Below are positions 10,212 to 64,000 of a DNA stretch of 64,000 nt, in pieces. The DNA is from Cyclobacteriaceae bacterium. Lineage in GTDB: Bacteria > Bacteroidota > Bacteroidia > Cytophagales > Cyclobacteriaceae. The DNA is taken from NCBI GenBank assembly GCA_019638395.1, contig JAHBTX010000003.1, positions 894,022 to 958,021 of the forward strand, in the 5' to 3' direction. The notes under the pieces are model-generated. The model was not told where the DNA came from, did no database searches, and saw only the letters and a program-made list of their open reading frames with translations. Within the stretch, counting starts at the first letter, position 1. Every line of letters begins with the position of its first letter. Both the position numbers and the translations under genes were made by a program.

Positions 10212-10247
10212 AGGCTGAATCAACTTTGGTTGATTCAGCCTTTTTTT
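10212..10247 (+). terminator. Strong rho-independent terminator after the histone-like gene
   Basis: A perfect 13-bp stem (10212-10224 with 10229-10241; arm AGGCTGAATCAAC) and a TTTG loop, followed by a run of seven T. It can also serve the convergent TPR gene in part because the left flank is A-rich. Confidence 0.93.
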
Positions 10248-10317
10248 GTTTACAAAGCGTCTTGAAATTGAACATAAGTCGGCAGTATGTTCTGTTAACT
10301 TAATAATTCGTTTGGAG

Positions 10318-11523: not shown

Positions 11524-11626
11524 GATTCAAGATGCGTAATTATTCGCCTAAAAGAAAACCGTTAACAGGCTATTAACGTTTTAAGATTGGTTGTAAACCA
11601 AACAGTACAAATCTTGTTTAATTGAT

Positions 11627-12292: not shown

Positions 12293-12298
12293 ATCCGA

Positions 12299-13612: not shown

Positions 13613-13683
13613 AGTTAATTTTGAAAAAATATTCATAACCAATAACTTAGTGGCCTGTAGTTAATTTTTTAAACTAACATACT

Positions 13684-14532
13684 ATGAGGGCCATCTGGAA
13701 GGGACACATCCAATTTTCGCTTGTTACAATTCCGGTGCGGATTTACAACGCGATTGATACCGGGCAAACAATCAGCTTTAACTTGTTGAGTAAAGACGGC
13801 CACAACCCGGTTAGCTACGAGAAAAAAGATAAGGTAACCGGACAACCCCTCAAGAACGAAGACATTGTGAAAGGGTATCAATACGAACCGGGCCAGTTCG
13901 TGATTATTGAACAAGAAGATTTGAATAAAGTAAAACTCAAGAGCGAGAAGATTATAGAAATGGAAGGCTTTGTGAAAGCCGAAGAAGTGCACCACACTTT
14001 ATTTGAGGCACCTTACTTCATTGGTCCCGATGGCGATATCGCTGCCAAGACTTACGGATTGCTCTGCCAGACCTTAAAGGAAAGTGGCAAAGTAGGGGTG
14101 GGTAAAGTGGTATTGCGCGATCGGGAAACCCCGGTATTGATTTCACCGCACGAAGGTGGTATTCTGATGTACCGTTTGCGCTACCCGAATGAAGTACGCA
14201 AAATGAGTGAAGTTCCACAATTATTGGAAGTAAAGGCAGATAAAGAACAATTAAAACTGGCTAAAACATTAGTTGATTCCATGACCACCACCTTCACCAA
14301 AATAGAAATGAAGGATCATTATTACGATGCGCTCAAGGCGATTATCGATGCGAAGATTGCCGGTAAAGAGATTGTAATGGTTGCCGAAGAAGAACCCGTG
14401 GTGGTTGATATTATGACTGCTTTGAAAGCCAGCATTGAAGCCGCCAAAAAGAAGCCGATGGAAAAAGCCAAAGGCACAACTATGAAAGTTGAGAAGGAAA
14501 CGAAAAAGGTTGTGCGCAGAAAAGCAAGTTGA
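13684..14532 (+). CDS. ku: Ku protein, bacterial non-homologous end joining
   Basis: 282 aa. The N-terminus MRAIWKGHIQFSLVTIPVRIYNA and segments ISPHEGGILMYRLRYPNEVR and ALKAIIDAKIAGKEIV are hallmarks of bacterial Ku, a homodimeric ring that threads onto DNA ends and recruits LigD. The C-terminus is Lys-rich, a known variable DNA-binding extension. No ligD or other ligase is beside it or elsewhere in the window; neighbours are a UbiB-like kinase and a TPR gene, so any partner would be unlinked. Confidence 0.94.
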   Translation: MRAIWKGHIQFSLVTIPVRIYNAIDTGQTISFNLLSKDGHNPVSYEKKDKVTGQPLKNEDIVKGYQYEPGQFVIIEQEDLNKVKLKSEKIIEMEGFVKAEEVHHTLFEAPYFIGPDGDIAAKTYGLLCQTLKESGKVGVGKVVLRDRETPVLISPHEGGILMYRLRYPNEVRKMSEVPQLLEVKADKEQLKLAKTLVDSMTTTFTKIEMKDHYYDALKAIIDAKIAGKEIVMVAEEEPVVVDIMTALKASIEAAKKKPMEKAKGTTMKVEKETKKVVRRKAS

Positions 14533-14567
14533 TCTTTTGATTTAGCGGCTCAAAACTTCATTATTAA

Positions 14568-14634
14568 TTCAGAATTCAACTCCGTTAGGAGTTAAATATT
14601 TGTAGCCACCGGTCTTTAGCCGGTGGTTTTTTAT
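14568..14634 (+). repeat. Two-hairpin intergenic element, doubling as terminator after ku
   Basis: Two palindromes lie back to back: AACTCC-GTTA-GGAGTT near 14578-14593, and CCACCGG (14606-14612) with CCGGTGG (14620-14626), followed by six T. The ATTTGTAG-like linker and paired hairpins resemble short dispersed elements common in Bacteroidota intergenic DNA. The second hairpin with its T-run should terminate ku transcription. Only one copy is in this window. Confidence 0.6.
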
Positions 14635-14777
14635 TGTTTAAAAAGAGTAGGTGTCGATTACAAGCTAATGGATGAAATGAGTCTTTGAGCGACACCAGAG
14701 CAATGCTTGTTTCCAGTTCTGTTTCATTCCTAAGCTAAAGCTTCAGGTAATTCGTAACAAACCAACTTCATTTTGGT

Positions 14778-14785
14778 TAATTTTG
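14778..14785 (+). promoter_or_regulatory. Putative -7 box, possibly giving a leaderless transcript
   Basis: TAATTTTG is an exact TAnnTTTG match only five bases before the ATG at 14790. A start site about seven bases downstream of the box would fall on or at the start codon. No convincing -33 TTG is placed correctly, so the call is tentative. Confidence 0.35.
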
Positions 14786-14789
14786 CACA

Positions 14790-15389
14790 ATGGCTAAAGT
14801 TATCCAGTTTCCAATTCCAAATCCTGAAAAGTTTGGGTTTAAGCCGGTTCGGAAAAAGAAACCCGATACCAATACAAACAAGCCTGGCCAGTTGCACTTA
14901 TTTGGAGGTGCAAAAATTGTAAACCTCAACAACTTAACGCCATTTGAAGAAGCACTAATACTTGATGAGCAAGGCGACAACCGTGCCGCTGTTCAATATC
15001 AAAAAGCCATCGATGCCGGGGATTCCATTGCCGATGCCTATTGTAACCTGGGTATCATCGAATCGGGTAATCAACATTACACCAAAGCGGTGGATTGTTT
15101 TACCCGCGCACTTAAAGCAGACCCGCGCCACTTCGAAGCACATTACAACCTGGCCAATGTGTATGCCGAAATAGGGAACATGGCATTGGCCAAAATTCAC
15201 TACCAAATCTCAATCGAAATTGAACCTACCTTTCCCAACAGTTACTTTAACCTGGGGATTACATTGGCTATGAATAAAGAAATTCACGAAGCAATTCAAA
15301 GTTTACTTACTTATCGCAAACTTGCCGGCACCGAAGATCAGAGCCAGGCAGAAGAATTAATTGCAAGCCTGATGCGTTCGTTGCGTTGA
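14790..15389 (+). CDS. Cytosolic TPR-repeat protein
   Basis: 199 aa, no signal peptide. An N-terminal basic segment (MAKVIQFPIPNPEKFGFKP) precedes about four TPR units, for example CFTRALKADPRHFEAHYNLA. It is a protein-interaction module with no identifiable enzymatic part. The stop lies two bases from the convergent DUF3667 stop. Confidence 0.8.
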   Translation: MAKVIQFPIPNPEKFGFKPVRKKKPDTNTNKPGQLHLFGGAKIVNLNNLTPFEEALILDEQGDNRAAVQYQKAIDAGDSIADAYCNLGIIESGNQHYTKAVDCFTRALKADPRHFEAHYNLANVYAEIGNMALAKIHYQISIEIEPTFPNSYFNLGITLAMNKEIHEAIQSLLTYRKLAGTEDQSQAEELIASLMRSLR

Positions 15390-50857: not shown

Positions 50858-51886
50858 ATGAAAAGAAGTCTTGTATTGATTCTGCTGTTAGTTGGCGTAA
50901 ATGCACTTGCGCAGCAACAAGGTAAAGTAGTAAGCTTTACTATAAATGCGAAGACGCTTCAAAATACAGGTGGTGAAAATCCCAATCGTAAAGTGTCGGT
51001 CTATTTGCCGCCTGATTATGATCAACCTGGAAAACGGTTTCCGGTTATTTATTATTTGCACGGATTCATGGGTACCGACAGCATCTATCAACAAATGAAG
51101 TTGATTCTCGATCGGGCCATCACACAAAAGAAGATCCGATCTTTTATTTTGGTTCAGGCTAATCAATACACGCAGTATGAGGGTAGTTTTTATAGTAATT
51201 CAACGCTCACCGGAAATTGGTCGGACTTTACGGCAAAGGAATTGGTAGCGTATGTCGATAAAAACTATAAGACGATTGCCCATCGCGAAAGCAGGGGAAT
51301 AGCTGGCCACTCGATGGGAGGTTACGGTGCCCTTAAAATTGCCATGCTTTATCCGGACGTGTTTAGCAGTGTGTATGCATTAAGTCCGGGTTTGCTGGCT
51401 TTTGTTAAAGAGTTTGGTCCCAATAGTTCCTCGTTTAGAGATTTGGGTAAAGTAACTTCGCAGGAAGAACTCAAGCGAACTTATTATCCGAAAGTACTGG
51501 TGGCAGTAGCGCGGGCATGGTCGCCCAATCCAAACAAACCACCCTTTTATTGCGATGTTCCTTTTACCTATCAAGGTGATAGCATGATTGTAAACCAGGC
51601 GGTGTTGCAAAAGTGGAATGAAAACATGCCCGTTTACATGGTTGATAAGTATGCAGATAATCTGCGCAAGCTTAAAGCCATTAAGTTGGATTGGGGAAGA
51701 AATGATGCGGCTCGTTTTCCTTTGCAATGTGGTATGTTTAGCCAGCGTCTGGAAAATCTCGGTATCGCGCATTATGCTGAAGAATACATTGGCGACCACG
51801 GCAATAAAATCTGGACAATTGATGGTCGCGTCTTAAACGATTTGTTACCTTTCTTTAACGAGTACCTGAAGTTCGAAACCAACTAA
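50858..51886 (+). CDS. Esterase D/feruloyl-esterase-like alpha/beta hydrolase
   Basis: 342 aa with a signal peptide (MKRSLVLILLLVGVNALAQQ). Putative-esterase family: VSVYLPPDYDQPGKRFPVIY, YYLHGFMGTDS, nucleophile Ser152 in IAGHSMGGYGA, His in EYIGDHGNKIW. Relatives include feruloyl and acetyl esterases. Five bases after esterase 3, so cotranscribed. It extends the ester-cleaving set to a different fold subfamily. Confidence 0.88.
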   Translation: MKRSLVLILLLVGVNALAQQQGKVVSFTINAKTLQNTGGENPNRKVSVYLPPDYDQPGKRFPVIYYLHGFMGTDSIYQQMKLILDRAITQKKIRSFILVQANQYTQYEGSFYSNSTLTGNWSDFTAKELVAYVDKNYKTIAHRESRGIAGHSMGGYGALKIAMLYPDVFSSVYALSPGLLAFVKEFGPNSSSFRDLGKVTSQEELKRTYYPKVLVAVARAWSPNPNKPPFYCDVPFTYQGDSMIVNQAVLQKWNENMPVYMVDKYADNLRKLKAIKLDWGRNDAARFPLQCGMFSQRLENLGIAHYAEEYIGDHGNKIWTIDGRVLNDLLPFFNEYLKFETN

Positions 51887-51895
51887 CTACTTCGC

Positions 51896-53191
51896 TTGCT
51901 TGCACTTTTTGGATTTGGAACCATTGCCGTATTTCTGATACTCATTATTTCAAAGCGATTATCAGTAATCACTGCTTTGGTTTTGGTGCCGGTTGTATTT
52001 GGCTTGTTAGCTGGCATATCGGTTAAAGATCTTTCCGAAATGATGTTGGCTGGAATCAAGCAGGTAGCACCAACGGGCATCTTGCTGGTGTTTGCTGTGC
52101 TGTATTTTGCGGTGATGCTGGATGTAGGCTTGTTTGATCCGGTGATAACCTTTATCATCAAACAAGTAAAAGGCGATCCATTGAAGGTAGTAATGGGTAC
52201 TGCTATCCTTACTATGATTGTGCATTTGGATGGCGATGGCACTGCAACTTTCATGATTGTTATATCAGCCTTTCTGCCTATCTACAAAGAATTAAAAATG
52301 AATAAGCTGGTATTGGCCGGGATCGTGGCATTAAGTGTTGGCCCGCTGCATCTCGTTCCCTGGTCGGGTACTTCCGCACGAGCCATTGCTACTATGAATA
52401 GCACTGCGCCTGAAATCTTCAATCCCAATATTCCCGCTATACTCGGTGGAATCGCCTGGGTATTGTTGGTTGCATATGTCTGGGGTAAGCGTGAACGCAA
52501 ACGACTGGGAGTAGCAGATCTAAACTATAGCCATCACGAATCCCTAACAGAAGAACAACGCGCACTGCGCAGACCTAAGCTGATTTGGCTGAATGCACTG
52601 CTTACTATAACGCTGATCATCGTTTTAATGATGGGTTGGATTCCAACACCGGTTTTGTTTTTGGTGGCAGCGGCTTTGGCATTGCTTGTTAACTATCCTA
52701 ACCTGAAGGATCAACAGAAAATTGTTAAGAGTCATGGTGCAAATATTTTTCTTGTTTCGAGTATGATTTTCGCAGCGGGAATATTTTCAGGGATTCTTAC
52801 CGGTTCTAAAATGATTGATGCCATGGCAACCTCGTTAGTGAACCTGATACCCGAAAGTCAGGCTGGTTTATTACCTTTATTAACAGCCGTTACGAGTATG
52901 CCTGCCAGCTTATTGTTTACACCCGATGCGTATTACTTTGGCGTTGTGCCGGTGCTAAGCGAAACCGCACAGCATTTTAACATCGATCATCTGGAGATTG
53001 GTCGTGCGGCTTTGCTTGGGCAGATGACGGTTGGGTTTCCCTTGAGCCCACTTACGGCTTCCACTTTTTTATTGATAGGATTATGTGAAGTGGATCTGGG
53101 CGATCATCAGAAGTTTGTGTTTAAATGGGCGATGGGCACTACGCTGGTGATGACACTTATAGCTTTGCTTACAGGATCCATTCATCTATGA
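51896..53191 (+). CDS. CitMHS-family carboxylate transporter
   Basis: 431 aa, about 11-12 transmembrane helices, from a TTG start nine bases after the previous stop. The N-terminus LALFGFGTIAVFLILIISKR and the MIVHLDGDGTATFMIV and PWSGTSARAIATMNST motifs match the CitM/CitH metal-citrate:H+ symporters. It would import a di- or tricarboxylate or hydroxyacid, possibly as a metal complex, perhaps a product of the esterases. Overlaps the AtuA-type gene by four bases. Confidence 0.9.
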   Translation: MLALFGFGTIAVFLILIISKRLSVITALVLVPVVFGLLAGISVKDLSEMMLAGIKQVAPTGILLVFAVLYFAVMLDVGLFDPVITFIIKQVKGDPLKVVMGTAILTMIVHLDGDGTATFMIVISAFLPIYKELKMNKLVLAGIVALSVGPLHLVPWSGTSARAIATMNSTAPEIFNPNIPAILGGIAWVLLVAYVWGKRERKRLGVADLNYSHHESLTEEQRALRRPKLIWLNALLTITLIIVLMMGWIPTPVLFLVAAALALLVNYPNLKDQQKIVKSHGANIFLVSSMIFAAGIFSGILTGSKMIDAMATSLVNLIPESQAGLLPLLTAVTSMPASLLFTPDAYYFGVVPVLSETAQHFNIDHLEIGRAALLGQMTVGFPLSPLTASTFLLIGLCEVDLGDHQKFVFKWAMGTTLVMTLIALLTGSIHL

Positions 53192-54507
53192 AAGAGAAAA
53201 TCAGAGTTGGGTGTGGGGCTGGCTTTTCGGGTGACCGATTAGACCCTGCTGTGATTCTGGTAGAACATGGTGAACTGGATTACCTTGTATTGGAGTGCCT
53301 GGCCGAACGAACTATTGCACTCGCACAAAAACGTAAACTTCAAAATCCACAGGCCGGCTATGATCCGCTACTAGAGCGAAGAATAGAGTTGTTGCTGGAG
53401 CCTTTGCTTCGTAAACGAGTAAAACTCATCACTAACATGGGCGCTGCTAATCCCCAGGCTGCGGCCGGTAAGATAATAGAGATTGCTAAACGAAAGAAGC
53501 TACAAGTGAAAGTAGCCGCAGTTGTGGGCGATGATGTATTGACCAGCATCGATCCCACCGCACCCACACTTGAAACATCGCAACCATTGGTAACACACGG
53601 GTCTTTGATTTCTGCCAATGCTTACATGGGGGTTGAAGGAATCCTGGAAGCCTTGCAAACAAATGCTGATATTATAATTACCGGTCGCGTGGCCGACCCT
53701 TCACTTTTTGTAGCCCCGATGATGCATGCGTTTGGTTGGACTGAACAAAACTATGATCTGCTTGGTAAAGGAACTGTGTTGGGTCATTTGCTGGAATGCG
53801 CAGGTCAATTAACCGGTGGCTATTATGCTGATCCGGGAAAAAAAGATGTGCCCGACATGGCTCACCTCGGTCATCCGTTTGTAGATGTGCAGGCCGATGG
53901 GAGTGGAATGCTTGGTAAAGTAAAGGGAACCGGTGGTTTGATTAACCTGGATACAGTGAAAGAACAATTGCTGTACGAAGTGGTAAACCCACATGCGTAT
54001 TACACACCCGATGTAATTGCCGATTTTACATCGGTAAAGTTAATGCAACACGCTCAGGATGAAGTTAAGGTTATGGGTGGAGCTGGCCAATCAAAACCCA
54101 ACACTTTAAAAGTAAGTGTGGGCTACCAAGCTGGGTATTTGGGGGAAGGGGAAATTACCTATGCCGGCACTAATGCTGTTGGCCGTGCCACGCTTGCAGG
54201 AGAAATTGTTAAGGAGCGGTTGAGGTCTGTGCTTCCGGATTTGCGTATCGATCTGATCGGACAAAATTCAGTGCATGGGAATGCGTTTCACCGCAACGAG
54301 CCCTATGAAGTGCGGCTTCGGGTTGCGACAAAGACGAGTGATGCCAGTCTCGCTGCATTAGTGGGTGAAGAAGTAGAAGCTTTATATACCAACGGCCCCG
54401 GTGGTGGTGGCGGTGTACGAAAATATGTTCATGAAACGATTGGTATAGTTTCAACACTTATTGACCGGCAACTTGTAAAACCACAAATTATAGTTAAGAC
54501 TTCATGA
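53188..54507 (+). CDS. AtuA-family (DUF1446) protein
   Basis: 439 aa. Family segments: VRVGCGAGFSGDRLDPAVIL-like start, LITNMGAANPQAAAGKIIEI, ANAYMGVEGILEALQTNADI, ITGRVADPSLF and GAGQSKPNTLKVSVGY. AtuA was named for acyclic terpene (citronellol) utilisation in Pseudomonas; its reaction is unclear and homologues sit in diverse acyl-CoA and hydroxyacid catabolic clusters. The ATG at 53188 gives an ATGA overlap with the transporter. Its C-terminal domain is a separate gene here. Confidence 0.85.
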   Translation: MKEKIRVGCGAGFSGDRLDPAVILVEHGELDYLVLECLAERTIALAQKRKLQNPQAGYDPLLERRIELLLEPLLRKRVKLITNMGAANPQAAAGKIIEIAKRKKLQVKVAAVVGDDVLTSIDPTAPTLETSQPLVTHGSLISANAYMGVEGILEALQTNADIIITGRVADPSLFVAPMMHAFGWTEQNYDLLGKGTVLGHLLECAGQLTGGYYADPGKKDVPDMAHLGHPFVDVQADGSGMLGKVKGTGGLINLDTVKEQLLYEVVNPHAYYTPDVIADFTSVKLMQHAQDEVKVMGGAGQSKPNTLKVSVGYQAGYLGEGEITYAGTNAVGRATLAGEIVKERLRSVLPDLRIDLIGQNSVHGNAFHRNEPYEVRLRVATKTSDASLAALVGEEVEALYTNGPGGGGGVRKYVHETIGIVSTLIDRQLVKPQIIVKTS

Positions 54508-54803
54508 AACTGTATGATATTGCACACAGCAGGGCGGGCGATAAAGGAAACACCTTAACGCTTTCGCTGATTCCCTATAAAGAATCGGATTATTCCATGT
54601 TGTGCGAAAAGGTGACGGCTGAAAAAGTGAAAGCACATTTGAAGGAAATTATAAAAGGTGAAGTAGTGCGTTACGAACTTCCGAATATAGCTTCATTACT
54701 GTTTGTGTGTCAGCAAGCGCTTAGTACCGGAGTAACCACTTCTTGGGTGATGGATGCACATGGTAAAACGTTGAGCTACGCCTTACTGGAGATGGAAATC
54801 TAA
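54504..54803 (+). CDS. AtuA-like C-terminal (ferredoxin-fold) protein
   Basis: 99 aa (MKLYDIAHSRAGDKGNTLTL, LPNIASLLFVCQQALSTGVT). This matches the small domain that is fused to the C-terminus of AtuA in many bacteria and stands alone in others. The ATGA overlap with the AtuA gene and the shared context indicate that the two products form one complex. SRAGDKGN is the conserved signature, perhaps the active-site loop. Confidence 0.82.
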   Translation: MKLYDIAHSRAGDKGNTLTLSLIPYKESDYSMLCEKVTAEKVKAHLKEIIKGEVVRYELPNIASLLFVCQQALSTGVTTSWVMDAHGKTLSYALLEMEI

Positions 54804-54813
54804 ACGATCAGGA

Positions 54814-56319
54814 ATGAAAACCTTGAGAGTAATTCAGCTTTTGATACTCTTGTTCGGAGCAATAACTGTTGCCGCGCAAGAACAAAAACCTCGCACCATC
54901 GTTACCACCGATGGCGAATTGGATGATGTGGATTCTTTCATCCGGCTGTTGTTGCATGCCAACGAATTTAAAATCGAGGGTCTCATCATCAGCAGTTCCA
55001 TGTGGCATTACAAAGGCGATGGAAACGGTACGAAGTTCACCTCCGAGATGGAGATGACCAAAAAACTCTATGGTGAACGTACGGAATTACGTTGGCCGGG
55101 CACGGATTGGATTTACAACCTGTTGGAGGCTTACGGAAAAGTTTATCCTAACCTGAAATTGCACTCACCCAATTTTCCTACTGCTGAATACTTACGCTCG
55201 GTCACCCGTATTGGTAATATTGATTTTGAAGGTGAGATGGAAAAAGACACGGAAGGTTCCGAATTTATCAAGGCAAGTTTATTGGATGATAATACCGAGC
55301 CACTTTACCTGCAGGTGTGGGGTGGCACCAATACGATTGCGCGTTCGTTAAAGTCGATTGAAGATCAATACAAAAACACCCCGCAGTGGAAGTCCATTTA
55401 TAAGAAAGTTTGTGACAAGGCCATCATCTATGCCATACTTGATCAGGATGCTACTTACCGCAAGTACATTTCTGTTAACTGGCCCGATGTAAAAATTTAT
55501 TACAATGCCAGCCAGTTCTGGTGTTTTGCCTACTTCTGGAAACGGGCTGTGCCGGAGCAGTGGCACCACTATATGCAAGGTAAGTTCATGGGGCCAATCA
55601 TCAACAACAGTGGACCCTTGTTGAAAATGTATTACAGCTATGGCGATGGTAATCCGCCAGCAGGCGAGTTAGAAGACATCTATAGCGATCCTGAGAAAAT
55701 AAAGAGCAACATGTGGGGTAGCTTCACGCAATACGATTTTATTTCGGAAGGCGACTCGCCAGCATTCTTTCATTTGATAGATGTTGGGTTGGATAACCTG
55801 AACAATCCACACTATGGAGGGTGGGGTGGAAGGTTGGTTCAATCAATCACTGTACCTTCTCGTTGGGAAGATGGCGAACACGTGGTGGACTATAATCCGT
55901 TTACCCAAAAGCCGGATGCAGCTTATCCGCAAACGCGGTGGGTAGATGTGCTGCAAAATGAATTTGCGGCCCGGGCTGCATGGTGCGTGCAGCCGTATAA
56001 CAAAGCCAATCATCCACCCAGGGTTATCTTGAAAGTTCCTGAGAATAAAGAAGTAAAAGCGGGTGAAAAAATAAAGTTATTGGTAAAATCGTCCGATCCT
56101 GACTCCGGGCAAGAAATAAAATTTAAATGGTGGCAATACCATGAAGTGGATTCTTATGCAGGAAAAATCAATCTTGAAAATGAGAATGGCGCCACACTTA
56201 TGCTACGTGTACCGGCCGATGCCAAACCCGGAGATGATATTCACATCATTCTCTCAGCCACCGATACGGGTACGCCTGCGCTTACACGGTATGTGCGGGT
56301 GGTGTTGAAGGTGAGGTGA
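54814..56319 (+). CDS. DUF1593 nucleoside-hydrolase-like secreted protein
   Basis: 501 aa with a signal peptide (MKTLRVIQLLILLFGAITVA). The N-terminal domain has the Asp cluster of nucleoside hydrolases (TTDGELDDVDSFIRLL), with WGGTNTIARSL and a helical core. The C-terminal ~90 residues form an Ig-like DUF1593 C-terminal domain (VKAGEKIKLLVKSSDPDSGQ). Substrate could be a ribo- or glycosyl conjugate. Ten bases after the previous gene; last member of the run. Confidence 0.85.
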   Translation: MKTLRVIQLLILLFGAITVAAQEQKPRTIVTTDGELDDVDSFIRLLLHANEFKIEGLIISSSMWHYKGDGNGTKFTSEMEMTKKLYGERTELRWPGTDWIYNLLEAYGKVYPNLKLHSPNFPTAEYLRSVTRIGNIDFEGEMEKDTEGSEFIKASLLDDNTEPLYLQVWGGTNTIARSLKSIEDQYKNTPQWKSIYKKVCDKAIIYAILDQDATYRKYISVNWPDVKIYYNASQFWCFAYFWKRAVPEQWHHYMQGKFMGPIINNSGPLLKMYYSYGDGNPPAGELEDIYSDPEKIKSNMWGSFTQYDFISEGDSPAFFHLIDVGLDNLNNPHYGGWGGRLVQSITVPSRWEDGEHVVDYNPFTQKPDAAYPQTRWVDVLQNEFAARAAWCVQPYNKANHPPRVILKVPENKEVKAGEKIKLLVKSSDPDSGQEIKFKWWQYHEVDSYAGKINLENENGATLMLRVPADAKPGDDIHIILSATDTGTPALTRYVRVVLKVR

Positions 56320-56788
56320 GGAATTTTAAGGTCTTACAATCTATATGCAAATTCAGGTTGCCGAAAATTATATATAAAGTGCTACAATTTTTCGTAAATT
56401 CAGGGTTCCAATAAGGGTATATAAGCAACTCGTTGCTTATAGCCGGACGTTAGCGCCAATGCCCTTCCAGCACCGCGGACAATTACGACCAAGCCGACAA
56501 AGACTCGGCTCCGCAGACAAGAAAAAAATTAACGGGTGACACTCTACTAATTCAGATTCCCCACGCGGACAATTGAACGTTTCTTTAGACAACGTGGGAC
56601 TGAAAATCAAAAAATATAACTTGGGACACGACTACGAATTAAGATTCGTACCATATCCACCCACCGCACAGCAACCGTGGAGAGATTCTCTCCCACGCTT
56701 TTGGCACATGCCATAGCCGCACAAACCCACGCGATACCAAAGCTATGGCAAGAGCCAAACCCACAACAAAAAAATACTAAATTTGAGT
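56320..56788. other. Entry to the accessory array: palindrome, attC-like end, hairpin element
   Basis: Contains a 10-bp perfect palindrome TATAAGCAAC/GTTGCTTATA (56420-56429, 56432-56441) followed by GCCGGACGTTAGCGCC, similar to the right ends of the attC-like sites downstream. Next come two GCGGACAATT words (56475, 56565) in DNA without a coherent gene, and then the first copy of the covarying hairpin element. No open frame of note. Confidence 0.55.
56703..56757 (+). repeat. Covarying hairpin element, copy 1
   Basis: Outer stem TTGGC/GCCAA, internal loop ACAT/AAGA, inner stem GCCATAGC (56710-56717) with GCTATGGC (56742-56749), and a 24-base loop with CGCAC, ACGC and CCAAA. Copy 2 at 61061 keeps the loops but has GCCAAAGC/GCTTTGGC and GGCAC/GTGCC stems. 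32 bases before the HEPN gene. Confidence 0.75.
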
Positions 56789-57592
56789 ATGGCTATTCAA
56801 TCTTTTGACGAAGTGACTTTGCGAAACATTTCAAAAATATTTTCCGATATTTTGTCACACAAGCAAATAACAGAACAGTTTACAATTTGTGGAATCGTAG
56901 AATCAGGACCTGGTTCAAACAGGGAGGATAGAATCTACTACTCACTCCAAGAAAGGCAAAAGCAGGACAATTGCGGAAATACAGTATTAAGTTTCATTCT
57001 CAAAGTAATACAGCCAAAACGCTATAGTGATGAGGATACGTATGAACTACACAGGACAAGAATAAACGAGAAGCTTATTTATGATGGAATTGAAATTGAC
57101 AAAGCAGGCCAACCCAAATCAGTTGCTAAAGCAAAAACTATTTCGGAGGCTAAAGAGCGTTCCTTAAAAATAAAGCAAAAGGTACATGGACTTAATATTC
57201 ATCATGAGATATTGCCGTATTGTGAGGAAGAGTGGTTAAAAGAAAATTACTTTCATTCCATTTTAGAAATCACGAAAAGCGTTGCTGAAAGACTTCGACA
57301 GCTTAGTGGCTATACCAATGATGGTGCGGACTTAGTCGATGATTGCTTTGGACTTGGGAAGGACAACAAACCAATGCTTGCGTTCAACTTACTAAAACTT
57401 GAAAGTGAATTAAGTGAGCATAAAGGATTTGGACATTTTATTAAAGGTTTTTTCAGTATGTACAGAAACCCAAAAGCTCATGACCCTAAGATTTCAAGCG
57501 AATCAGGTCTACTCCAAATGACAGAGGTTTTGGTTATCTCTACAATAATTCACAACAAATTGGATAAAACATTTAAGACGGGATATAAATGA
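56789..57592 (+). CDS. TIGR02391 (Ymh-type) HEPN protein
   Basis: 267 aa. The C-terminal half matches the Ymh/TIGR02391 domain: YFHSILEITKSVAERLRQLS, DGADLVDDCFGLGKDNKP, GFGHFIKGFFSMYRNPKAHD. RNPKAH (about 226-231) fits the RxxxxH catalytic motif of HEPN ribonucleases that act in abortive infection and toxin systems. The N-terminal ~140 residues are unfamiliar. ATG at 56789 is chosen over a TTG two codons upstream. First of four closely spaced genes (12, 33 and -1 base gaps). Confidence 0.78.
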   Translation: MAIQSFDEVTLRNISKIFSDILSHKQITEQFTICGIVESGPGSNREDRIYYSLQERQKQDNCGNTVLSFILKVIQPKRYSDEDTYELHRTRINEKLIYDGIEIDKAGQPKSVAKAKTISEAKERSLKIKQKVHGLNIHHEILPYCEEEWLKENYFHSILEITKSVAERLRQLSGYTNDGADLVDDCFGLGKDNKPMLAFNLLKLESELSEHKGFGHFIKGFFSMYRNPKAHDPKISSESGLLQMTEVLVISTIIHNKLDKTFKTGYK

Positions 57593-57604
57593 ATGAATTA
57601 GAAA

Positions 57605-58375
57605 ATGAGCATCAATAATTGGGCAATTCTAGCCTACTTCCTATTAAAACTTTTAGTACCTGAGCTGCTTCCTAACTCTTATAAATTAGAGGCAGAGATT
57701 TCGCTTTCGTGTATTGGTATTGGCCTAATAGCAGTAGGTTTATTGAATTTATTTATAAGTGAGAAAAGGCTCAGGAAGATTTCTGAGATAACAACAAATG
57801 AAAATATCGGTGCGTATTTTAAGCTTATTCTGTTACTGTCATTTACAAGGCTGGATTCATTAGGAAGCGGTGGTCCAATAGTATACATGACCATTACTCT
57901 GTCTTTACTTCTTTTCTGCCTTTTCGTTATTTTGAAAGAAATAAAACTAACAAAAACTCTTATTAATGGAGTAATCGTTGGGCACATCGTTTTTGGTTAC
58001 TTTCTTTACAATTGGAGTAAGAGCACGTATGTTAGAAACTACGGAAATGAAATAATCGGAAGTTATTGGGAAAAGCCGGATTACCGAACGAAGTACTTAG
58101 TAAAAATGTCAAAGAGTGAAGATTTCTCAAGAGCTTATACATTGCCTGCCCAAGTCCATGTATACACTATTGTCGAGGAGAGTGACTATCCGCAGGAGGA
58201 TGCATACGGCAATGAATATTATGACTCATATCGTCATAAATACATAATCATCGAAAAAGTATTTTGGCCAAATGGTGGTTTCTTGGAATTTCAAGACTGC
58301 GATTTGGAGGAAAGTGACTATTGTCATGATAGTCACGGTAGGTATTGGTACTTAAAAATTGATAAGAAATTGTAA
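57605..58375 (+). CDS. Membrane protein of unknown function
   Basis: 256 aa. About four transmembrane helices in the first 145 residues (WAILAYFLLKLLV; LSCIGIGLIAVGLLNLFI; VYMTITLSLLLFCLFVIL; LINGVIVGHIVFGYFLY), then a ~110-residue polar domain rich in Tyr and acidic residues. Family not recognised. Starts 12 bases after the HEPN gene. A membrane-anchored sensor or effector would fit an abortive-infection operon, but this is inference. Confidence 0.6.
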   Translation: MSINNWAILAYFLLKLLVPELLPNSYKLEAEISLSCIGIGLIAVGLLNLFISEKRLRKISEITTNENIGAYFKLILLLSFTRLDSLGSGGPIVYMTITLSLLLFCLFVILKEIKLTKTLINGVIVGHIVFGYFLYNWSKSTYVRNYGNEIIGSYWEKPDYRTKYLVKMSKSEDFSRAYTLPAQVHVYTIVEESDYPQEDAYGNEYYDSYRHKYIIIEKVFWPNGGFLEFQDCDLEESDYCHDSHGRYWYLKIDKKL

Positions 58376-58408
58376 TCCCGAGTTCGAAAAGACAAATATT
58401 ATTCAATT

Positions 58409-59650
58409 ATGGATAAGAATAAAAGTGATACTAAATCAATTATTTTAAGGCAGAATACAAGCATTTTCAAACTAGGTAGTTCAATAGCAATTACAAACAA
58501 ACTACTATTCGGAGATATTGAATCGTTTTTTAACCAGGCATTTGTCTTAATGAATAGCCGTGATATAAGTTCAGTAAAGGAAAACTATCTATCGAATTTT
58601 GAATATGATAACGATTATGAAGCTAAAATGAAATTTCGCTATTGGTCACCCTCAGAAGATAACGAAAAGGCTATCGCTTTACTAAATAAGGTCGTTGAAA
58701 TAAGAAGTAAACATTTCTTGTCTTATTACTTGAGGGGTATCGCAAATAGAAATTTAAGAAACTTTGAACAGGCAATTTCAGATTTTTCTAAAGTGATTGC
58801 TATAGAACCTTATTATACAAATGCGTATCGTAAACGCGGTAAAGCAAAAGTTTCTTTAAAAGATAAACTAGGAGCAATCAATGATTATTCAAAAATAATT
58901 GAAATTGAAAATCGAGCCATCTCCTATTTTGAAAGAGGGCGTATAATGCAAGAATTTAGGCACTTCTCAAAAGCATGTGATGACTATTCAAAGGCGATAG
59001 AGATGGACCAAAATTATTATGAGGCTTACTTATATCGTGGTAACGCTAAGCAGTTTTTGAGGGATACCAGGGGTGCATTAGAAGATTACTCAGCCAGTAT
59101 TAGAATAAATCCAACCTATACTTTTGGATATGTACAGCGGGGAAATCTTAAAATAAAATTAAAAGACTTAGAAGGAGCAATTGAGGATTACTCGAAAGCA
59201 ATTGAAACAAGTCCTAACCGAGGTCATGCATATGAACTTAGAGCCATTGCAAAGACTGAAATACGAGACATTGAAGGTGCCATTCAAGATTATAATAATG
59301 CGATAGAAAACGATAGTCATCCATCACCACGTATTTTTGTCGATAGAGGTAGATTAAAAGTAAATCTTAGAGATTTTAAAGGAGCTATAGAGGATTTCTC
59401 TAGGGCAAACGATATATACGACACAGATTTCTCGGAGGCATGTTATGAACGGGCGAACGCAAAAGCTCTCTTGCAAGATTATCAAGGAGCTATCGAAGAC
59501 TATTCAAAGGCAATTGAATCGTATAACGACATAACACGCATTGAAATCGAGACAATTTATCTCGCCCGAAGTAAAGCAAAAGAGGCATTGAATGATTTTG
59601 AGGGTGCTGACCAAGATATCAGAAAGTACAAAAACTTAAATGAAGGATAA
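58409..59650 (+). CDS. TPR-repeat protein
   Basis: 413 aa, no signal peptide. After a ~90-residue unfamiliar N-terminus come about nine to ten regular TPRs with consensus like LKDLEGAIEDYSKAIETSP and YYEAYLYRGNAKQFLRDTRG. A regular solenoid of this kind binds partner proteins or peptides. Its stop codon overlaps the PLD/J-domain gene's ATG by one base, so the two are translationally coupled and probably form a complex. Confidence 0.82.
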   Translation: MDKNKSDTKSIILRQNTSIFKLGSSIAITNKLLFGDIESFFNQAFVLMNSRDISSVKENYLSNFEYDNDYEAKMKFRYWSPSEDNEKAIALLNKVVEIRSKHFLSYYLRGIANRNLRNFEQAISDFSKVIAIEPYYTNAYRKRGKAKVSLKDKLGAINDYSKIIEIENRAISYFERGRIMQEFRHFSKACDDYSKAIEMDQNYYEAYLYRGNAKQFLRDTRGALEDYSASIRINPTYTFGYVQRGNLKIKLKDLEGAIEDYSKAIETSPNRGHAYELRAIAKTEIRDIEGAIQDYNNAIENDSHPSPRIFVDRGRLKVNLRDFKGAIEDFSRANDIYDTDFSEACYERANAKALLQDYQGAIEDYSKAIESYNDITRIEIETIYLARSKAKEALNDFEGADQDIRKYKNLNEG

Positions 59651-61026
59651 TGCAAATAGAGGCAGTATTTGAAAATGTTCAAGAACGGATAGTCCAAGAA
59701 ATAAGGAGTGCAAAGAAGTCGATTTATGTCGTTATAGATAATCCTAATAACAAGATTCTTTCCAATGAATTACTTAAGAAAGCTAAGGATGGCTGCGCAG
59801 TATCACTTATTATATATATAGACAACATCAACTTAAATCCATCAATCAATTTTCATGAACTTTTAGTCAACAAGGCTAACCTCTATAAAATTGAAAATAG
59901 TAAGCCGGATTTGAGGCATGCCAACTATTATGTAATTGATTTTAGCAAAGTAATTACTGGTTCTTACAATTGGGGCATTGAATTAGAAAACAATTTTGCT
60001 AGTGCAATTATCACAAGTAATGATACCTCTTTGGCCGAACAATTCATTTCAGACTTCAATAAGATTAAAAATCAATATTATTCAAATGACATAAAGGAGG
60101 AAATCGATTTTCCTCTGAATAAAATCATCAAAAGACTCGAGATACTAAAAAACTATATTCTCCTTGAAGATATTAAGGAGTTAAACAAAGAGATTTTAAA
60201 ACTCAAAGAATACGAGTTTAATTCGGACTTATTTGAAATAGTTGATGCCTTAAATAGAAATGAATTCGCATTGGCTATCAGTAGAATTGAAATATTTGTA
60301 TCTAAAAATCAACAACTTTCAATTTGGACTGACCCAGAACTTATTGCTCTAAAATTGGAAATTAGAAATCTCGAAAACCAAATAAATGCATTTGATAACG
60401 AAAAAATTGAACTTGAAAAGTTAATTACTGAATTTCATCATCGCCATACAATTGAGTTAGGCGACATCATTCTTAATATTTTGAATTTACGTAAACGGAA
60501 ATATAGAGCCGACAAATCAAAGTATGAAGAAGCCACAAATGATGAAAAACAATATCGACAACAGTATGAATCAGAAAGTAAAAAACAAATATTCGATTTA
60601 ACCGAGGAGCAAAAAAAGGAATTGAAAAAAAAGTTCAGAAAAGCAACTGTATTGTGCCATCCAGACAAGGTGAGTGATGAATTCAAAGAAGCAGCACAAA
60701 AGATATTTATTGAACTAAAGCAGGCCTATGATGCTAACGACCTAGAAAAAGTAAATGCTATTCTTGAAGACCTAGAAAAAGGAAATTACTTTAGGTCAAA
60801 GTCTGAAATGGTTTCGGAAAAAGAGCTACTAAAACTCGCTATAGCAAGACTAAGAATACAAATAGATAATTTGGAACAAGAAATTATAGCAATCAAGCAA
60901 AGTGAAACATACAAAACGATTATTGGTATTTCTGACTGGGACGATTTCTTCAAAAAAACAAAGATTAAATTACAAAAGGAACTTGAGCAACTAAAGCTGG
61001 AAATAAACCAAAACTCTAAGCACTAA
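59650..61026 (+). CDS. PLD-like domain fused to a DnaJ-like domain
   Basis: 458 aa. N-terminal PLD-superfamily domain (~1-150): a single half-site with H90-A-N92-YYVI-D97 and GSYNWG (104-109). The catalytic Lys of HxKx4D is replaced by Asn92, so nuclease activity is doubtful. A helical/coiled-coil middle follows. A J-domain lies near residues 315-375 with the HPD motif intact (His337-Pro338-Asp339 in LCHPDKV). A second coiled coil closes the protein. The J-domain could recruit DnaK to remodel the PLD target. Overlaps the TPR gene by one base. Confidence 0.78.
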   Translation: MQIEAVFENVQERIVQEIRSAKKSIYVVIDNPNNKILSNELLKKAKDGCAVSLIIYIDNINLNPSINFHELLVNKANLYKIENSKPDLRHANYYVIDFSKVITGSYNWGIELENNFASAIITSNDTSLAEQFISDFNKIKNQYYSNDIKEEIDFPLNKIIKRLEILKNYILLEDIKELNKEILKLKEYEFNSDLFEIVDALNRNEFALAISRIEIFVSKNQQLSIWTDPELIALKLEIRNLENQINAFDNEKIELEKLITEFHHRHTIELGDIILNILNLRKRKYRADKSKYEEATNDEKQYRQQYESESKKQIFDLTEEQKKELKKKFRKATVLCHPDKVSDEFKEAAQKIFIELKQAYDANDLEKVNAILEDLEKGNYFRSKSEMVSEKELLKLAIARLRIQIDNLEQEIIAIKQSETYKTIIGISDWDDFFKKTKIKLQKELEQLKLEINQNSKH

Positions 61027-61060
61027 TGTTGCGAATATTATGAAATTGAATTCTCACCGC

Positions 61061-61123
61061 GCTGGCACACATGCCAAAGCCGCACGTTCCAAACGCACAT
61101 CCAAAGCTTTGGCAAGAGTGCCG
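61061..61123 (+). repeat. Covarying hairpin element, copy 2
   Basis: GGCAC/GTGCC outer stem, ACAT/AAGA internal loop, inner stem GCCAAAGC (61073-61080) with GCTTTGGC (61106-61113), 25-base loop with CGCAC, ACGC and CCAAA. Begins 35 bases after the PLD/J gene stop, in the same orientation as copy 1, so the two copies bracket the four-gene operon. Confidence 0.75.
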
Positions 61124-61281
61124 CCACCGCACCACGGGGACAAAGTAGTAAGAGTTCACAGTAAACCGATAATGTAGTGTAACGGTTGCCCCGTCCGCGA
61201 CTTAAGTTTCACGAAACAATTCGGTGGACAAATTGACAATATAACGGTGGACAAATCACCAAGGACGGGAGAAGGGCACAG

Positions 61282-61452
61282 GCGCTAACAAAATGTTTCT
61301 GCAATGTGGGGGTTCGGTGTAGGTATTAAAAGTAATTTCTTAATTTAGTTCGGTGTCGGGGGACAGAGACGTGCAGGTCGGGCTTAACATTTCGCTGCGC
61401 TTCATTTTTAAGCCCTCCTATTCCCCACACTGCAGAAACACAAACGTTGTGT
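61282..61452 (+). repeat. attC-like long hairpin site 1
   Basis: GCGCTAAC on the left, then a 17-base arm (61295-61311, starting GTTTCTGCA) that pairs with 61423-61439 at 16 of 17 positions, and ACGTTGTGTGC on the right. AAC and GTT face each other outside the stem. The middle contains TTTCTTAATTTAGTTC, GGGGACAG and a hairpin with CATTTCGCTGCGCTTCATT. The single mismatch is A-C on this strand and would be a G-T wobble on the other. Confidence 0.6.
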
Positions 61453-61479
61453 GCCATTTCCGGGACAGAAAATTTAAAG

Positions 61480-61965
61480 ATGACAGACGACAAATTTCTG
61501 AGTTCTGACTACTTCAACAAATCTTGGACTTGGTACAAGAGACTTGGATATTTTTTATTCTTCGTTTTTCTCGTGACAGCTTGGGAGATTGCAGAAGACC
61601 CGTGGGATTTTTGGTGGATAAAGTATGCAATACTGACATTTATTTCATTGGGACTATTTCTATCTCCAGTTGACGACATTGCAATTGACGACAATTATTT
61701 CTACCATATCAAAAGGTCGTTATTAAAATCTAAGAACAAAATTGACAAGTACGACATCTCGACAATTAAATCAGTAAGATGTTTGGGGGTTCACGTTCCA
61801 GGACTTAGTCTCCAAGAAATGGCGGGGACGAATAGACAATTGAGTACCGAGACCAATACTATTGAGATAACTTTTAAAGACGGGACATATAAAAGTATAG
61901 AACTCGCGATTTATAAAAAGGAGTTAATCTTTTATGCGGAGAAAATTAGAGAACGACTTAAATGA
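61480..61965 (+). CDS. Small membrane protein, cassette-borne, function unknown
   Basis: 161 aa with two hydrophobic segments (YFLFFVFLVTAWEIA and IKYAILTFISLGLFLSPV) and a polar C-terminal beta-rich domain (NTIEITFKDGTYKSIELAIY), reminiscent of PH-like membrane proteins. ATG 61480 chosen; an upstream frame would start inside the attC-like right end. It lies alone between two attC-like sites, the layout of a one-gene cassette. Confidence 0.6.
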   Translation: MTDDKFLSSDYFNKSWTWYKRLGYFLFFVFLVTAWEIAEDPWDFWWIKYAILTFISLGLFLSPVDDIAIDDNYFYHIKRSLLKSKNKIDKYDISTIKSVRCLGVHVPGLSLQEMAGTNRQLSTETNTIEITFKDGTYKSIELAIYKKELIFYAEKIRERLK

Positions 61966-61970
61966 AAACG

Positions 61971-62145
61971 GCACACAACACTGTGCATAAGCCATAGCGG
62001 GGTTCAGTGTTGCATTATAGTTTTTGTTTCTTAATTTCGTTCACCCACGTGGGACAAGGCGCAGCAGGTCGGCCTTGGCATTCCGCTTCGCTTCATTGCC
62101 AAGTCCTCCTAAACCCCGCTACGGCTCATGCACTCACGTTGTGGC
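61971..62145 (+). repeat. attC-like long hairpin site 2
   Basis: GCACACAAC on the left, a 22-base arm (61983-62004, starting GTGCATAAGCC) pairing with 62112-62133 at 20 of 22 positions, then CACGTTGTGGC on the right. The middle has TTTCTTAATTTCGTTC, GGGACAAGGCG, GCAGGTCGG and a hairpin with CATTCCGCTTCGCTTCATT, all shared with site 1. Both mismatches (61989/62127 and 61994/62122) are A-C here, G-T on the other strand. Confidence 0.65.
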
Positions 62146-62489
62146 TCATTTGCTGAAATTGGTCACGCGGACAGTGACGACCTTGACGATTTAGATTTTT
62201 CTACGCGTAAAGAGTGGACTGAAATAAATTAAAAAATATCAGACCAGATCAGTAACGCACGACACCGCGACTACTTTGGGACTTTAACAAAAAACTAAAA
62301 ACGGGGACAAGGACTTTTTATTTACGCGGACAATTTTCCAACGGTTGACAGTTTTTCACTCCGCGGAGAAAGAAATAAACGGGGACTTGACCTCGCCCGA
62401 CAATTGATTTTAAATGGAGCTCGCTTCTTCGTGACAACAATTTAGGGTCGACACGGTCGACAACAAAGTCTACGGACGAAGCAAACGAG
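62146..62489. other. Non-coding stretch between attC-like sites 2 and 3
   Basis: No coherent reading frame on either strand. Rich in GGACA words and includes GCGGACAGT (62167) and GCGGACAATT (62326), also present at 56475 and 56565. Could be a decayed cassette or encode an RNA. Confidence 0.5.
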
Positions 62490-62622
62490 CCACAACAACA
62501 TGTTTGCGTCAGGCGGGGTTGACGTGTAGTTTGAAGTTTTGTTATCTTTAGTTCGTTTGGTGTCGGGGACAGGGCGTAGTTTCAAATTCCCGCCCGACCG
62601 CAAACACAAACGTTGCCGGCAA
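62490..62622 (+). repeat. attC-like long hairpin site 3
   Basis: CCACAACAAC on the left, arm TGTTTGCGTCAGGCGGG (62501-62517) pairing with 62589-62606 (one bulged C at 62598, one A-C mismatch 62511/62595), then AACGTTGCCGGC on the right. The middle has TTTAGTTCG, GTGTCGGGGACAG as in site 1. The loop is shorter than in sites 1 and 2. Confidence 0.6.
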
Positions 62623-62653
62623 GCCATTTTAGGGTCATCAAAATTTGACAATT

Positions 62654-63337
62654 ATGTTTGATAATAAAAATATTAGGTTTTACAATTGGCCAGAGTTCCA
62701 CTATATTGAATTAGAACTTAATATATCGTTTAGTGCTTTACTTCTTCTGAGTAGGAACAATGAAGAGATATTGAATCACAAAATGACTGAGCTGGAAAAC
62801 GCAATCAAGAACGACAATTTACTTAGTTCCCTAGACGGCTCAGATGGTGCAAACTACTTTTCGCAACAATACGAATATTCAGTTATGACAATCAAAGAGA
62901 TAAGTCAAAAACAGCGATTTGCAATGGTACTTACAATATTCGCAACTATTGAAAATCATCTAAAAAGAATTATTGGAATAGTTGAGACTAGGAGAAATTC
63001 TAAAATTAAATTGAATACTTCACTAAGTAAGATTCAGAATTACTATAATTTCCTTGCAAAAGAATTTAGCATAACTTCTGAATCAATTATTTCATTATTT
63101 ACAATGCTCAACGACCAAAGACATATTAGAAATGCGATTGCACATGGTGATGGATCAATTACTGGAACGCAAATAGCCAATACTGATTATGGTATTAGTG
63201 TAGCAGTGAATGGCGATTCAAAGCAGCTTATAATTAGCGAAAGTATCTATGTAGAGTACCTTCTTAAGACCAGTCAGGATTTTCTTGACAAACTGTTATT
63301 TGAGATAAATTCTAAAACTACTCCAATCCAAACCTGA
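62654..63337 (+). CDS. HEPN-like protein
   Basis: 227 aa, mostly helical. NDQRHIRNAIAHGDG holds an RxxxxH motif (Arg159-His164), the signature of HEPN domains of the MAE_28990/RiboL-PSP type; IFATIENHLKRIIGIVE is the preceding helix. These are often RNases in toxin or anti-phage systems. ATG 62654 preferred over a TTG three codons earlier. It follows attC-like site 3 by 31 bases and is five bases upstream of the next gene. Confidence 0.68.
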   Translation: MFDNKNIRFYNWPEFHYIELELNISFSALLLLSRNNEEILNHKMTELENAIKNDNLLSSLDGSDGANYFSQQYEYSVMTIKEISQKQRFAMVLTIFATIENHLKRIIGIVETRRNSKIKLNTSLSKIQNYYNFLAKEFSITSESIISLFTMLNDQRHIRNAIAHGDGSITGTQIANTDYGISVAVNGDSKQLIISESIYVEYLLKTSQDFLDKLLFEINSKTTPIQT

Positions 63338-63343
63338 TTGAAC

Positions 63344-63862
63344 ATGAAACTCCAATTGCTACTATTAATTTTTATTCCGAGTGCTGTATTTGCTCAGACG
63401 GAAGCTGAGACAAAGGCTTTTATTGAAAATATCGTATTTCACAATCCTTCCGAAATTCAAAATTTCTACTATCGTTTTTTTTTCAAATCTGACAACTCTG
63501 GATTTTCAATTAACATAGCAAATTGCCCCCCAAAGAAAACCGACTACAACGCTCCAGACTTTATGATTATTGAAAGAAAAGACGTTAAAGAAGGAAAGTA
63601 TTCTTCGGACTATTTAAGAATATCTTACTTAAGAGGCTATAAGATCACAACATATAATAACACATACTACATCGAATTACAGACCAAGGGTAGTGATGGA
63701 GCATTTTTTGAAATGGCGTGTGCAGATTCAAGCTGGTCTTCAACTACTCTTTCAACGAGTTCAAAGGAAGATGCAACTAAATTTATTAAAGCACTAAAAC
63801 ATCTGTGTAGCTTATACAAAACTTCATTTGTTGACCTGGACAATTTATTTAATGATAAATAG
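63344..63862 (+). CDS. Exported protein of unknown function
   Basis: 172 aa with a signal peptide (MKLQLLLLIFIPSAVFAQ). The mature part is polar, with two Cys (NCPPKK, MACADS) and no recognised domain. It follows the HEPN-like gene by six bases and is probably cotranscribed, an odd partner for an intracellular RNase. Confidence 0.6.
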   Translation: MKLQLLLLIFIPSAVFAQTEAETKAFIENIVFHNPSEIQNFYYRFFFKSDNSGFSINIANCPPKKTDYNAPDFMIIERKDVKEGKYSSDYLRISYLRGYKITTYNNTYYIELQTKGSDGAFFEMACADSSWSSTTLSTSSKEDATKFIKALKHLCSLYKTSFVDLDNLFNDK

Positions 63863-63952
63863 CTTCTATGTGAAGGTGACTGCTGAATAATAAGGTACCC
63901 GGACAGTTTTGTTTTCAGCGACAAAAATTCACCAACACGGAAAATTTGAGAA

Positions 63953-64000
63953 ATGGAATACAAACAACGACTGACCATTGTGACACGGTGGGCTGAAAAT
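63953..64000 (+). CDS. Possible start of a gene cut by the window edge
   Basis: ATG opens 16 codons (MEYKQRLTIVTRWAEN) to the end of the window. Too short to identify; listed only because the accessory array continues here. Confidence 0.25.
   Translation, partial: MEYKQRLTIVTRWAEN

Follow-up and report, generated by a model that had tools for sequence, protein, structure and literature searches.

Hairpin-framed multi-gene cassettes in integron-like arrays of a Cyclobacteriaceae bacterium and other Bacteroidota

The window considered here is a 64,000-nucleotide stretch of DNA from a Cyclobacteriaceae bacterium (GenBank assembly GCA_019638395.1, contig JAHBTX010000003.1, forward-strand positions 894,022 to 958,021). 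The window is the end of the contig that we designate C21, and window positions are used throughout. The window contains an operon of four co-oriented genes (56783-61026; intergenic gaps of 12, 33, and −1 nucleotides [nt]) encoding a HEPN-like protein, a protein with a hydrophobic N-terminal half, a TPR-repeat protein, and a PLD-like protein with a DnaJ-like segment (PLD-J). Two same-orientation copies of a hairpin, H1 and H2, bracket the operon. An initial annotation, made from the sequence alone, had recorded the same genes, gaps, stems, and internal-loop words, and had given the unit as 56703-61123; that span proved to be the inner part of a unit that runs from about 56450 to 61446. These four genes make up the cargo of one large cassette, part of a chromosomal integron-like array, and the sequence around them is a reusable frame. 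The order in framed cassettes is a core (R′), leader, H1, cargo, H2, trailer, and R″ with the attC site.

The window cassette is the first after an attI-like segment that, compared by eye, is of the same sequence type as the segment that adjoins the end of the integrase gene at the opposite end of C21. Its R′ and R″ cores match at 8/8, its ends form an inverted repeat (56449-56467 and 61271-61289, 89%), the arms of its attC-like site are 94% complementary, and 61272-61451 is 91% identical to the matching part of a cassette on contig C5. The product of gene 1 matches PD-Lambda-3_B over nearly its whole length, whereas no PD-Lambda-3 model in PADLOC fits genes 2 to 4. Gene 2 had no family match in the domain and PADLOC profile scans, and the DnaJ match of gene 4 lies under the curated cut-off (24.7 versus 27.8 bits). 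The candidate −7 promoter element, matched to what we take to be the consensus, extends into the TTG codon called as the start of gene 1, and no −33 element was found beside it. No open reading frame (ORF) of at least 80 amino acids (aa) was found in the third cassette, and a structural hairpin scan of window positions 1-50000 on both strands returned zero copies. The idea that the four genes form a set of their own fared poorly: genome-wide searches, made with gene 4 only, found two PLD-J relatives, of which one is full length and the other is divided between two contigs; neither had relatives of the other three genes beside it or a hairpin, so that a conserved four-gene system is unsupported as far as these relatives show.

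Table 1. Features of the operon-carrying cassette and its neighbors, in window positions.
Feature	Position	Strand	Details
attI-like array start	56406..56449	+	TTCCAATAAGGG - hairpin - GACG; without intact adjoining integrase gene
Whole operon-carrying gene cassette	56450..61446	+	R′ TTAGCGCC at 56450; R″ GGCGCTAAC ending at 61289
Leader, 5′ part of cassette frame	56450..56699	+	85% identity over 94 nt (56447-56540) to start of the same-genome Zorya-bearing cassette
Hairpin H1 (class 1), inner frame edge	56700..56759	+	84.2 bits; DNA fold z −5.5 (+), −5.0 (−)
Candidate −7 promoter element TAAATTTG	56778..56785	+	Downstream of H1; pattern match
Gene 1, HEPN-like (Ymh), PD-Lambda-3_B-like	56783..57592	+	PF09509, 2.8e-28; PADLOC PD-Lambda-3_B, 3.7e-49; RNPKAH motif
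Gene 2, hydrophobic N-terminal half	57605..58375	+	Membrane nature judged by eye
Gene 3, TPR-repeat protein	58409..59650	+	PF00515, 5.2e-34
Gene 4, PLD-like with DnaJ-like segment	59650..61026	+	PF13091, 2.6e-11; DnaJ, 2.5e-5
Hairpin H2 (class 2)	61063..61123	+	36 nt past last stop codon; 74.7 bits; DNA fold z −3.2 (+), −4.65 (−)
Trailer, 3′ part of frame	61124..61280	+	61065-61202: 77% identity to the stretch from H2 into the trailer in a G078 cassette
attC-like site	61281..61446	+	R″ 61281-61289; arms 61294-61311 / 61423-61440; crossover G^TT at 61446/61447
Second cassette, small, one gene (61477-61965)	61447..62138	+	R′ TTGTGTGCC / R″ GGCACACAAC match; no hairpin pair
Third cassette	62139..62612	+	R′ TTGTGGCTC at 62139 / R″ GAGCCACAAC ending at 62496; next boundary 62613
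Fourth cassette, start only, cut by contig end	62613..64000	+	Boundary ACG^TTGCCGGCAAG

The stems of H1 and H2 differ by compensating changes, and ACAT, AAGA, and the loop ends are constant; example stems are TTTGGC/GCCAAA for H1 and RGCAC/GTGCY or CCACAC/GTGTGT for H2. Among 13 copies from the source genome, 96.2% of alignment cells were paired versus 70.5% after shuffling and at most 42.4% in slid-alignment controls, with double changes at 11 of 14 pairs. Pairing in 73 copies from genomes of the order was 94.4% versus 59.4%, and the covariation score of that set (0.826 versus 0.212 when shuffled) was reached in 0 of 500 shuffles. Two of five measures on the 73-copy set, double-change pairs (63/500) and pair types (229/500), did not rise above the shuffles, and related sequences inflate covariation counts. 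Pairing in both sets bears out the compensating changes first noted for the two window copies, and the hairpin is a real structured element, beyond chance. Rfam 15 covariance models gave no match in window positions 54000-64000 at E values up to 5, and a known RNA family was rejected on that basis; the scan of nine further array loci returned a group II intron only, at L094 7209-7531. That the hairpins on contigs C4 and C27 mark the edge of a group II intron was also rejected, the segment in question being leader sequence.

In the source genome, attC-like sites were found on contigs C2, C4, C5, C26, and C27 and at both ends of C21. A cassette starts after G^ with a variable core, TTRnnnn, and the complement ending in AAC closes the same cassette; tandem cassettes, folded attC-like sites, and matching R′/R″ cores, the array features of an integron, were all present. 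One end array of C21 (L030 1-4247) has an intact recombinase gene, and the other (window 56406-64000) has the attI-like segment only. The product of this tyrosine recombinase gene (L030 4247-3132, minus strand, followed by an attI-like segment) scored 182.6 bits against TIGR02249 (cut-off, 265) and 208.7 bits against NF040815 (cut-off, 220), and it has 22 residues where IntI4 has 65, at what we take to be the position of the IntI additional domain. Judged from this alignment, the domain seems to be absent from the source-genome recombinase, the sole one examined. Because the scores fall below the integrase cut-offs and the additional domain is seemingly absent, we term the arrays integron-like. 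A recombinase gene stands directly before the first cassette in the source genome and in genomes G078, G019, and G289 (the G289 match contains a stop codon), and a candidate attI-like segment follows the gene in four genomes, with a copy in the window. IS110-type transposase genes also lie within arrays (L024 3367-4437 and L031 6608-7633), as does a partial reverse transcriptase gene (L022 7016-7576, plus strand), inside an attC-like site of the C4 array.

The distances of H1 from the cassette start and of H2 from R″ fell mostly into classes of ~32/48-65, 40/34-44, 165-206/140-182, and ~263/108-115 nt, with a further case of 62/76; the window cassette has 250/166. In every row of our cassette table not judged spurious, the hairpins were co-oriented with their cassette. 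Size was compared fairly only in the core-matched cassettes of the source genome and G078, a subset that omits the C4, C5, C27, and window cassettes, whose ends were not both recognized. There, hairpins occurred in 0/31 cassettes below 2 kb, 1/4 of 2 to 3 kb, 4/5 of 3 to 5 kb, and 3/3 above, or 7/8 of those of at least 3 kb, the exception holding an IS110-type transposase gene. The wider table of 74 rows, biased since its loci outside these two genomes were fetched for holding hairpins, gave 0/33 below 1 kb, 1/11 at 1 to 2 kb, 5/11 at 2 to 3 kb, 5/7 at 3 to 5 kb, and 12/12 at 5 kb or more; at least two of its rows look spurious (L172 minus 2756-15089, within the 12/12, and L099 plus 1777-6368), and one (G078 50946-59918) begins at a missed boundary.

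We compared related cassettes to see what they share. G078, of the same family as the source, and G575, of a different family in the same class, have in common a framed cassette that carries type III methylase genes. Its outer blocks (L091 5092-5779 and 10373-13128) are 90% identical, two inner blocks are 81 to 85% identical, and part of the cargo is unaligned. The homology extends from the predicted first base to one base beyond the predicted R″. In G348, one framed cassette is present as two 98% copies in different places, which start one base before the predicted boundary. Since the edges of homology fall at predicted cassette ends, these alignments indicate that framed cassettes are shared between places as wholes. 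The initial annotation had placed the cassette ends at the hairpins; the shared homology starts and ends 206 and 166 bp outside them, and the hairpins were accordingly rejected as the ends of the moving unit. Its wider suggestion of a mobile defense cassette held in part: this kind of cassette is shared between genomes and much bracketed cargo matches defense families, but there is metabolic and regulatory cargo too. A search for the Zorya cargo as a DNA segment moved elsewhere found only its own genome among 395 of the class (E 1e-20).

The hairpins mark a different kind of edge. For class 1, 59 pairs among 36 hairpins had a leader identity of at least 0.62, and the cargo side was below 0.62 in 51 of them; shuffled flanks gave a baseline of 0.53 ± 0.03, with a maximum of 0.60. 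One such pair, L092:12006 and L092:18070, had identities of 0.90 in the leader and 0.58 on the cargo side. The profile of the 51 pairs was 0.48 to 0.59 inward, from the first 15 nt, and 0.60 to 0.85 outward. Class 2 gave 45 pairs among 35 hairpins, and the 41 used had identities of 0.50 to 0.59 inward and 0.61 to 0.77 outward. The pairs share members and are not independent; selecting them by identity on the cargo side makes the inner profile flatter, the pairs left out being shared cassettes or borderline cases, and where frames are shortest the outer stretch of 120 nt extends into the neighboring attC. Because frame homology ends at the hairpins and the cargo side lies near the baseline, the comparisons indicate that cargo changes between frames at the hairpins. 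By eye, leader and trailer types seem matched within cassettes.

Covariance-model searches, as the initial annotation had proposed, recovered many further copies, and further hairpins bracket other cassettes. At E values up to 0.01, model R1 matched 42 of the 291 genomes searched in the order; model R2, at E values up to 0.001, matched 67 of 395 in the phylum. Of the positive genomes, 20 in the order set and 34 in the phylum set had at least two copies and the others had one, under filters by which weak matches are lost. Relatives of the recombinase occurred in 30/42 hairpin-positive and 89/249 hairpin-negative genomes (Fisher P of 3e-5, uncorrected for kinship). The source genome gave 20 hits at E values up to 1, of which 16, the 13 model seeds among them, are on array contigs; two of the four off-array hits are followed by trailer sequence. 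A lone H2 with trailer and R″ (L058, hairpin 1501) directly follows what by eye is a type I restriction gene and seems to be what is left, outside the arrays, of a framed cassette. At 20 loci chosen for having two hairpins a few kilobases apart, a core-matched cassette encloses the hairpins in 8, and at some of the others, not all, attC-like sites were seen by eye beside them. One H2 pattern matched 100 stretches in genome_contigs; the 80 listed are nearly all labeled Bacteroidota or its subgroups, the exceptions among them including one Chlorobiaceae and one Ignavibacteriaceae record. Four metagenome-assembled genome (MAG) records with this pattern (L244, L245, L256, and L267) are labeled Desulfobulbaceae, Sphingomonadales, or Caldisericales and may reflect transfer or misbinning. 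In this set, which is only partly new (at least three stretches apparently overlap earlier loci), an attC-like site was found downstream in 38/63 distinct stretches that were long enough, upstream in 3/74, and in 15/210 random stretches. Hairpins without a recognized attC nearby also occur (e.g., L105 and L150), and the association of hairpin and attC is strong, not complete. Two hairpin patterns had zero exact matches in viral_contigs, and phage carriage was rejected on this count, exact patterns missing most subtypes. Three relatives have the Sde182-like upstream gene and no hairpin within ~19 kb, a comparison of one flank that falls short of full empty-site proof.

The bracketed cargo is large and varied, with maxima of 11.6 kb and 10 ORFs. 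The 33 bracketed segments together have 145 ORFs, 130 in the array direction and 15 opposite. In a set of 140 of the 145 cargo proteins, 512 PADLOC families were hit at 1e-8, compared with 9 families in 54 small-cassette proteins; because of overlap between families and the greater length of cargo proteins, these figures are not counts of systems. When one to four proteins, mostly the largest, were scanned from each of 24 segments, 14 segments had a match at 1e-30 or better and 10 had none. The matches are the window HEPN protein; a helicase like GajB or a DRT helicase; ZorA2 with ZorE2; PDC-S26; type I, type II (two), type IIG, and type III restriction enzymes or methylases; MkoA; DrmA; JetC; a PD-T4-6-like kinase; and PDC-S37. 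Among the cargo are proteins of Zorya, DISARM, Wadjet, Mokosh, and restriction systems; kinases, helicases, and methylases alone are no proof of defense. Two cargoes are not defensive, a molybdopterin-binding oxidoreductase on C5 and an F420-dependent oxidoreductase-like protein on C27. Neither is a 6.4-kb H1/H2-bracketed segment of C4 defense-like (L022 6742-309, minus strand, outside the 33-segment counts); it encodes a histidine kinase, a LytTR response regulator, an M1-peptidase protein, and others, and is followed by a trailer and then an R″ matching the core before its H1. In L024, a MotB/OmpA-like frame (7048-7731) between the ZorA2-like and ZorE2-like genes looks split by eye, which could mean an inactive Zorya-like system or an assembly error. 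The framed segment at L097 5836-10423 keeps both hairpins and has one ORF of at least 90 aa, on the opposite strand (9% coverage).

With the architecture of framed cassettes established, the question is what the hairpins do. In the reading that we favor, the framed cassette as a whole most likely moves through the action of a tyrosine recombinase on attC-type sites, as the homology edges suggest. H1 and H2 belong to the frame rather than to the operon and mark the points of cargo change; they would be folded-DNA elements recognized by shape, like attC, at which multi-gene cargo is joined or swapped. We infer this joining or swapping role, as well as a protein that would bind the hairpins; taken whole, the reading stands just short of even in our estimation.

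The folded-DNA component is supported by the mismatches in the stems. Over 1,016 cells there were 10 G·T, 9 A·C, and 30 C·T mismatches; G·T and A·C numbered 3 and 2 of 490 cells in H1 and 6 and 9 of 672 in H2. The tRNAs of the source genome have G·T in 50 of 731 cells, a comparison that is fair for G·T only, ARAGORN tRNA structures being without A·C, and that uses 34 structures from 30 loci, some counted twice. Since G·T is as rare as A·C and RNA hairpins are expected to tolerate G-U, folded DNA is favored: the stems are nearly all Watson-Crick and free in sequence. Of the two options in the initial annotation, recombination sites or RNA elements, the scarcity of G-U wobble disfavors the second. 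A strand choice from wobble was rejected, neither strand being favored when G·T equals A·C. Boxes resembling the −7 element occur just inside H1 at 11 of 30 loci (expected, 3.1) and in the leader at 3 of 30 (expected, 1.2), an enrichment which argues that H1 probably lies outside the cargo's own transcript.

Several observations weigh against the joining reading, the limits of the tRNA comparison among them. The commonest stem mismatch, C·T, is without explanation; −33/−7 pairs are scarce (3 of 30 on the cargo side and 0 in the leader); and an attC-like site was not recognized at 25 of the 63 H2-pattern loci with our crude detector. We saw no case in which close strains had exchanged cargo, and plain homologous recombination in the frames would give the same pattern. 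The position of H2 is also that of an RNA 3′-end element: at 76 of 80 loci, 3 to 44 nt separate its start from the last stop codon (13 to 19 nt at 38; median, 17), and on a separate list it starts within 37 nt at 41 of 50, small cassettes being equally compact before R″. At least four T's follow the stem in 12 of 35 H1 and 4 of 48 H2 copies, as would suit a terminator in some subtypes.

These last two observations lead to a serious rival, transcription insulation, in which H1 would block read-through from upstream, a promoter inside would serve the cargo, and H2 would end the transcript, the hairpins acting as RNA and in the direction of the array, perhaps with a factor. We think this possible, if on balance unlikely. 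The close spacing of H2 behind stop codons, the co-orientation of hairpins with cassettes, the −7-like boxes downstream of H1, the confinement of hairpins largely to long cassettes, and the T-runs of some H1 copies would all fit it, and the T-run counts raise it slightly and lower the cargo-joining reading slightly. Against it, G·T pairs are no commoner than A·C, some cargo genes lie on the opposite strand, there is no Rfam match, and T-runs are few after H2 and absent from both window copies, for which an intrinsic terminator was rejected; some other subtypes may differ.

Less probable, and in our view unlikely, is that the hairpins aid long cassettes: flanking attC in the circular cassette, they would fold with it in single-stranded DNA and bring distant ends together. 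The size relation in the source genome and G078 fits this, some frames have hairpins 31 to 65 nt from the cores, and variable stems with fixed mismatches may, by analogy, resemble structure-based attC recognition. Other frames, however, have hairpins 140 to 264 nt from the cores, and 6 of the 11 cassettes of 2 to 3 kb in the wider table are without hairpins. That the hairpins are ends of an IS200/IS605-type single-strand transposon, with either the cargo segment or an H2-attC-H1 module as the unit and no transposase inside (among the 25 commonest cargo families viewed, with no search aimed at a Y1 transposase), is very improbable: two similar same-orientation hairpins do bracket a unit and frame types seem by eye to match at both ends, but the source-genome hits lie mostly on array contigs and half of the rest run into trailer sequence.

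Known integrons are the closest relatives of these arrays among described systems. attC sites keep their structure, are free in stem sequence, and have conserved mismatches. H1 and H2 are like attC in all three respects and unlike it in lying inside the cassette and not being crossover points. Sedentary chromosomal and mobile integrons with anti-phage cassettes are on record (Darracq et al. 2025, Kieffer et al. 2025, and Getz et al., cited in PMC12409362), and in the part of this Vibrio defense-island review available to us, integron defense systems are described as streamlined to small size, with systems of more than two genes absent. The arrays described here resemble those integrons, as that part presents them, in their tandem cassettes, attC-like folded sites, predicted G^TT crossover, recombinase at the array start, and defense cargo; they differ in the size of the cargo, the hairpin pair, and, in the source genome, a recombinase that seems to lack the IntI additional domain. 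Integrons are also on record in the Bacteroidetes/Chlorobi group, from genes chosen by the intI additional domain or patch (PMC2426708), and in Bacteroidota, a phylum merely listed (PMC8618304); these are of the same phylum, and the portions of both papers that we saw mention neither hairpins nor large cassettes. No description of hairpin-framed or large multi-gene cassettes was found in the literature searched (titles and abstract openings, with few subscription papers or preprints).

How integron cassettes originate from genes is, to our knowledge, an open question. Frame homology that ends at a defined hairpin while the cargo changes offers a concrete junction for cargo loading. It is conceivable, though we regard it as doubtful, that there is a two-level system in which the inner H1/H2 pair loads or swaps multi-gene cargo in attC-bearing frames of Bacteroidota and relatives; this would lift the described integron size limit, give a route to new large cassettes, and make the arrays exchange libraries of complete multi-gene systems, anti-phage systems prominent among them. 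The hairpin pair also provides a search handle for complete, often unlabeled multi-gene systems across the phylum. The observation at this locus belongs to a larger pattern, a hairpin present across the Bacteroidota that marks the border between exchangeable cargo, often anti-phage genes, and a reusable frame.

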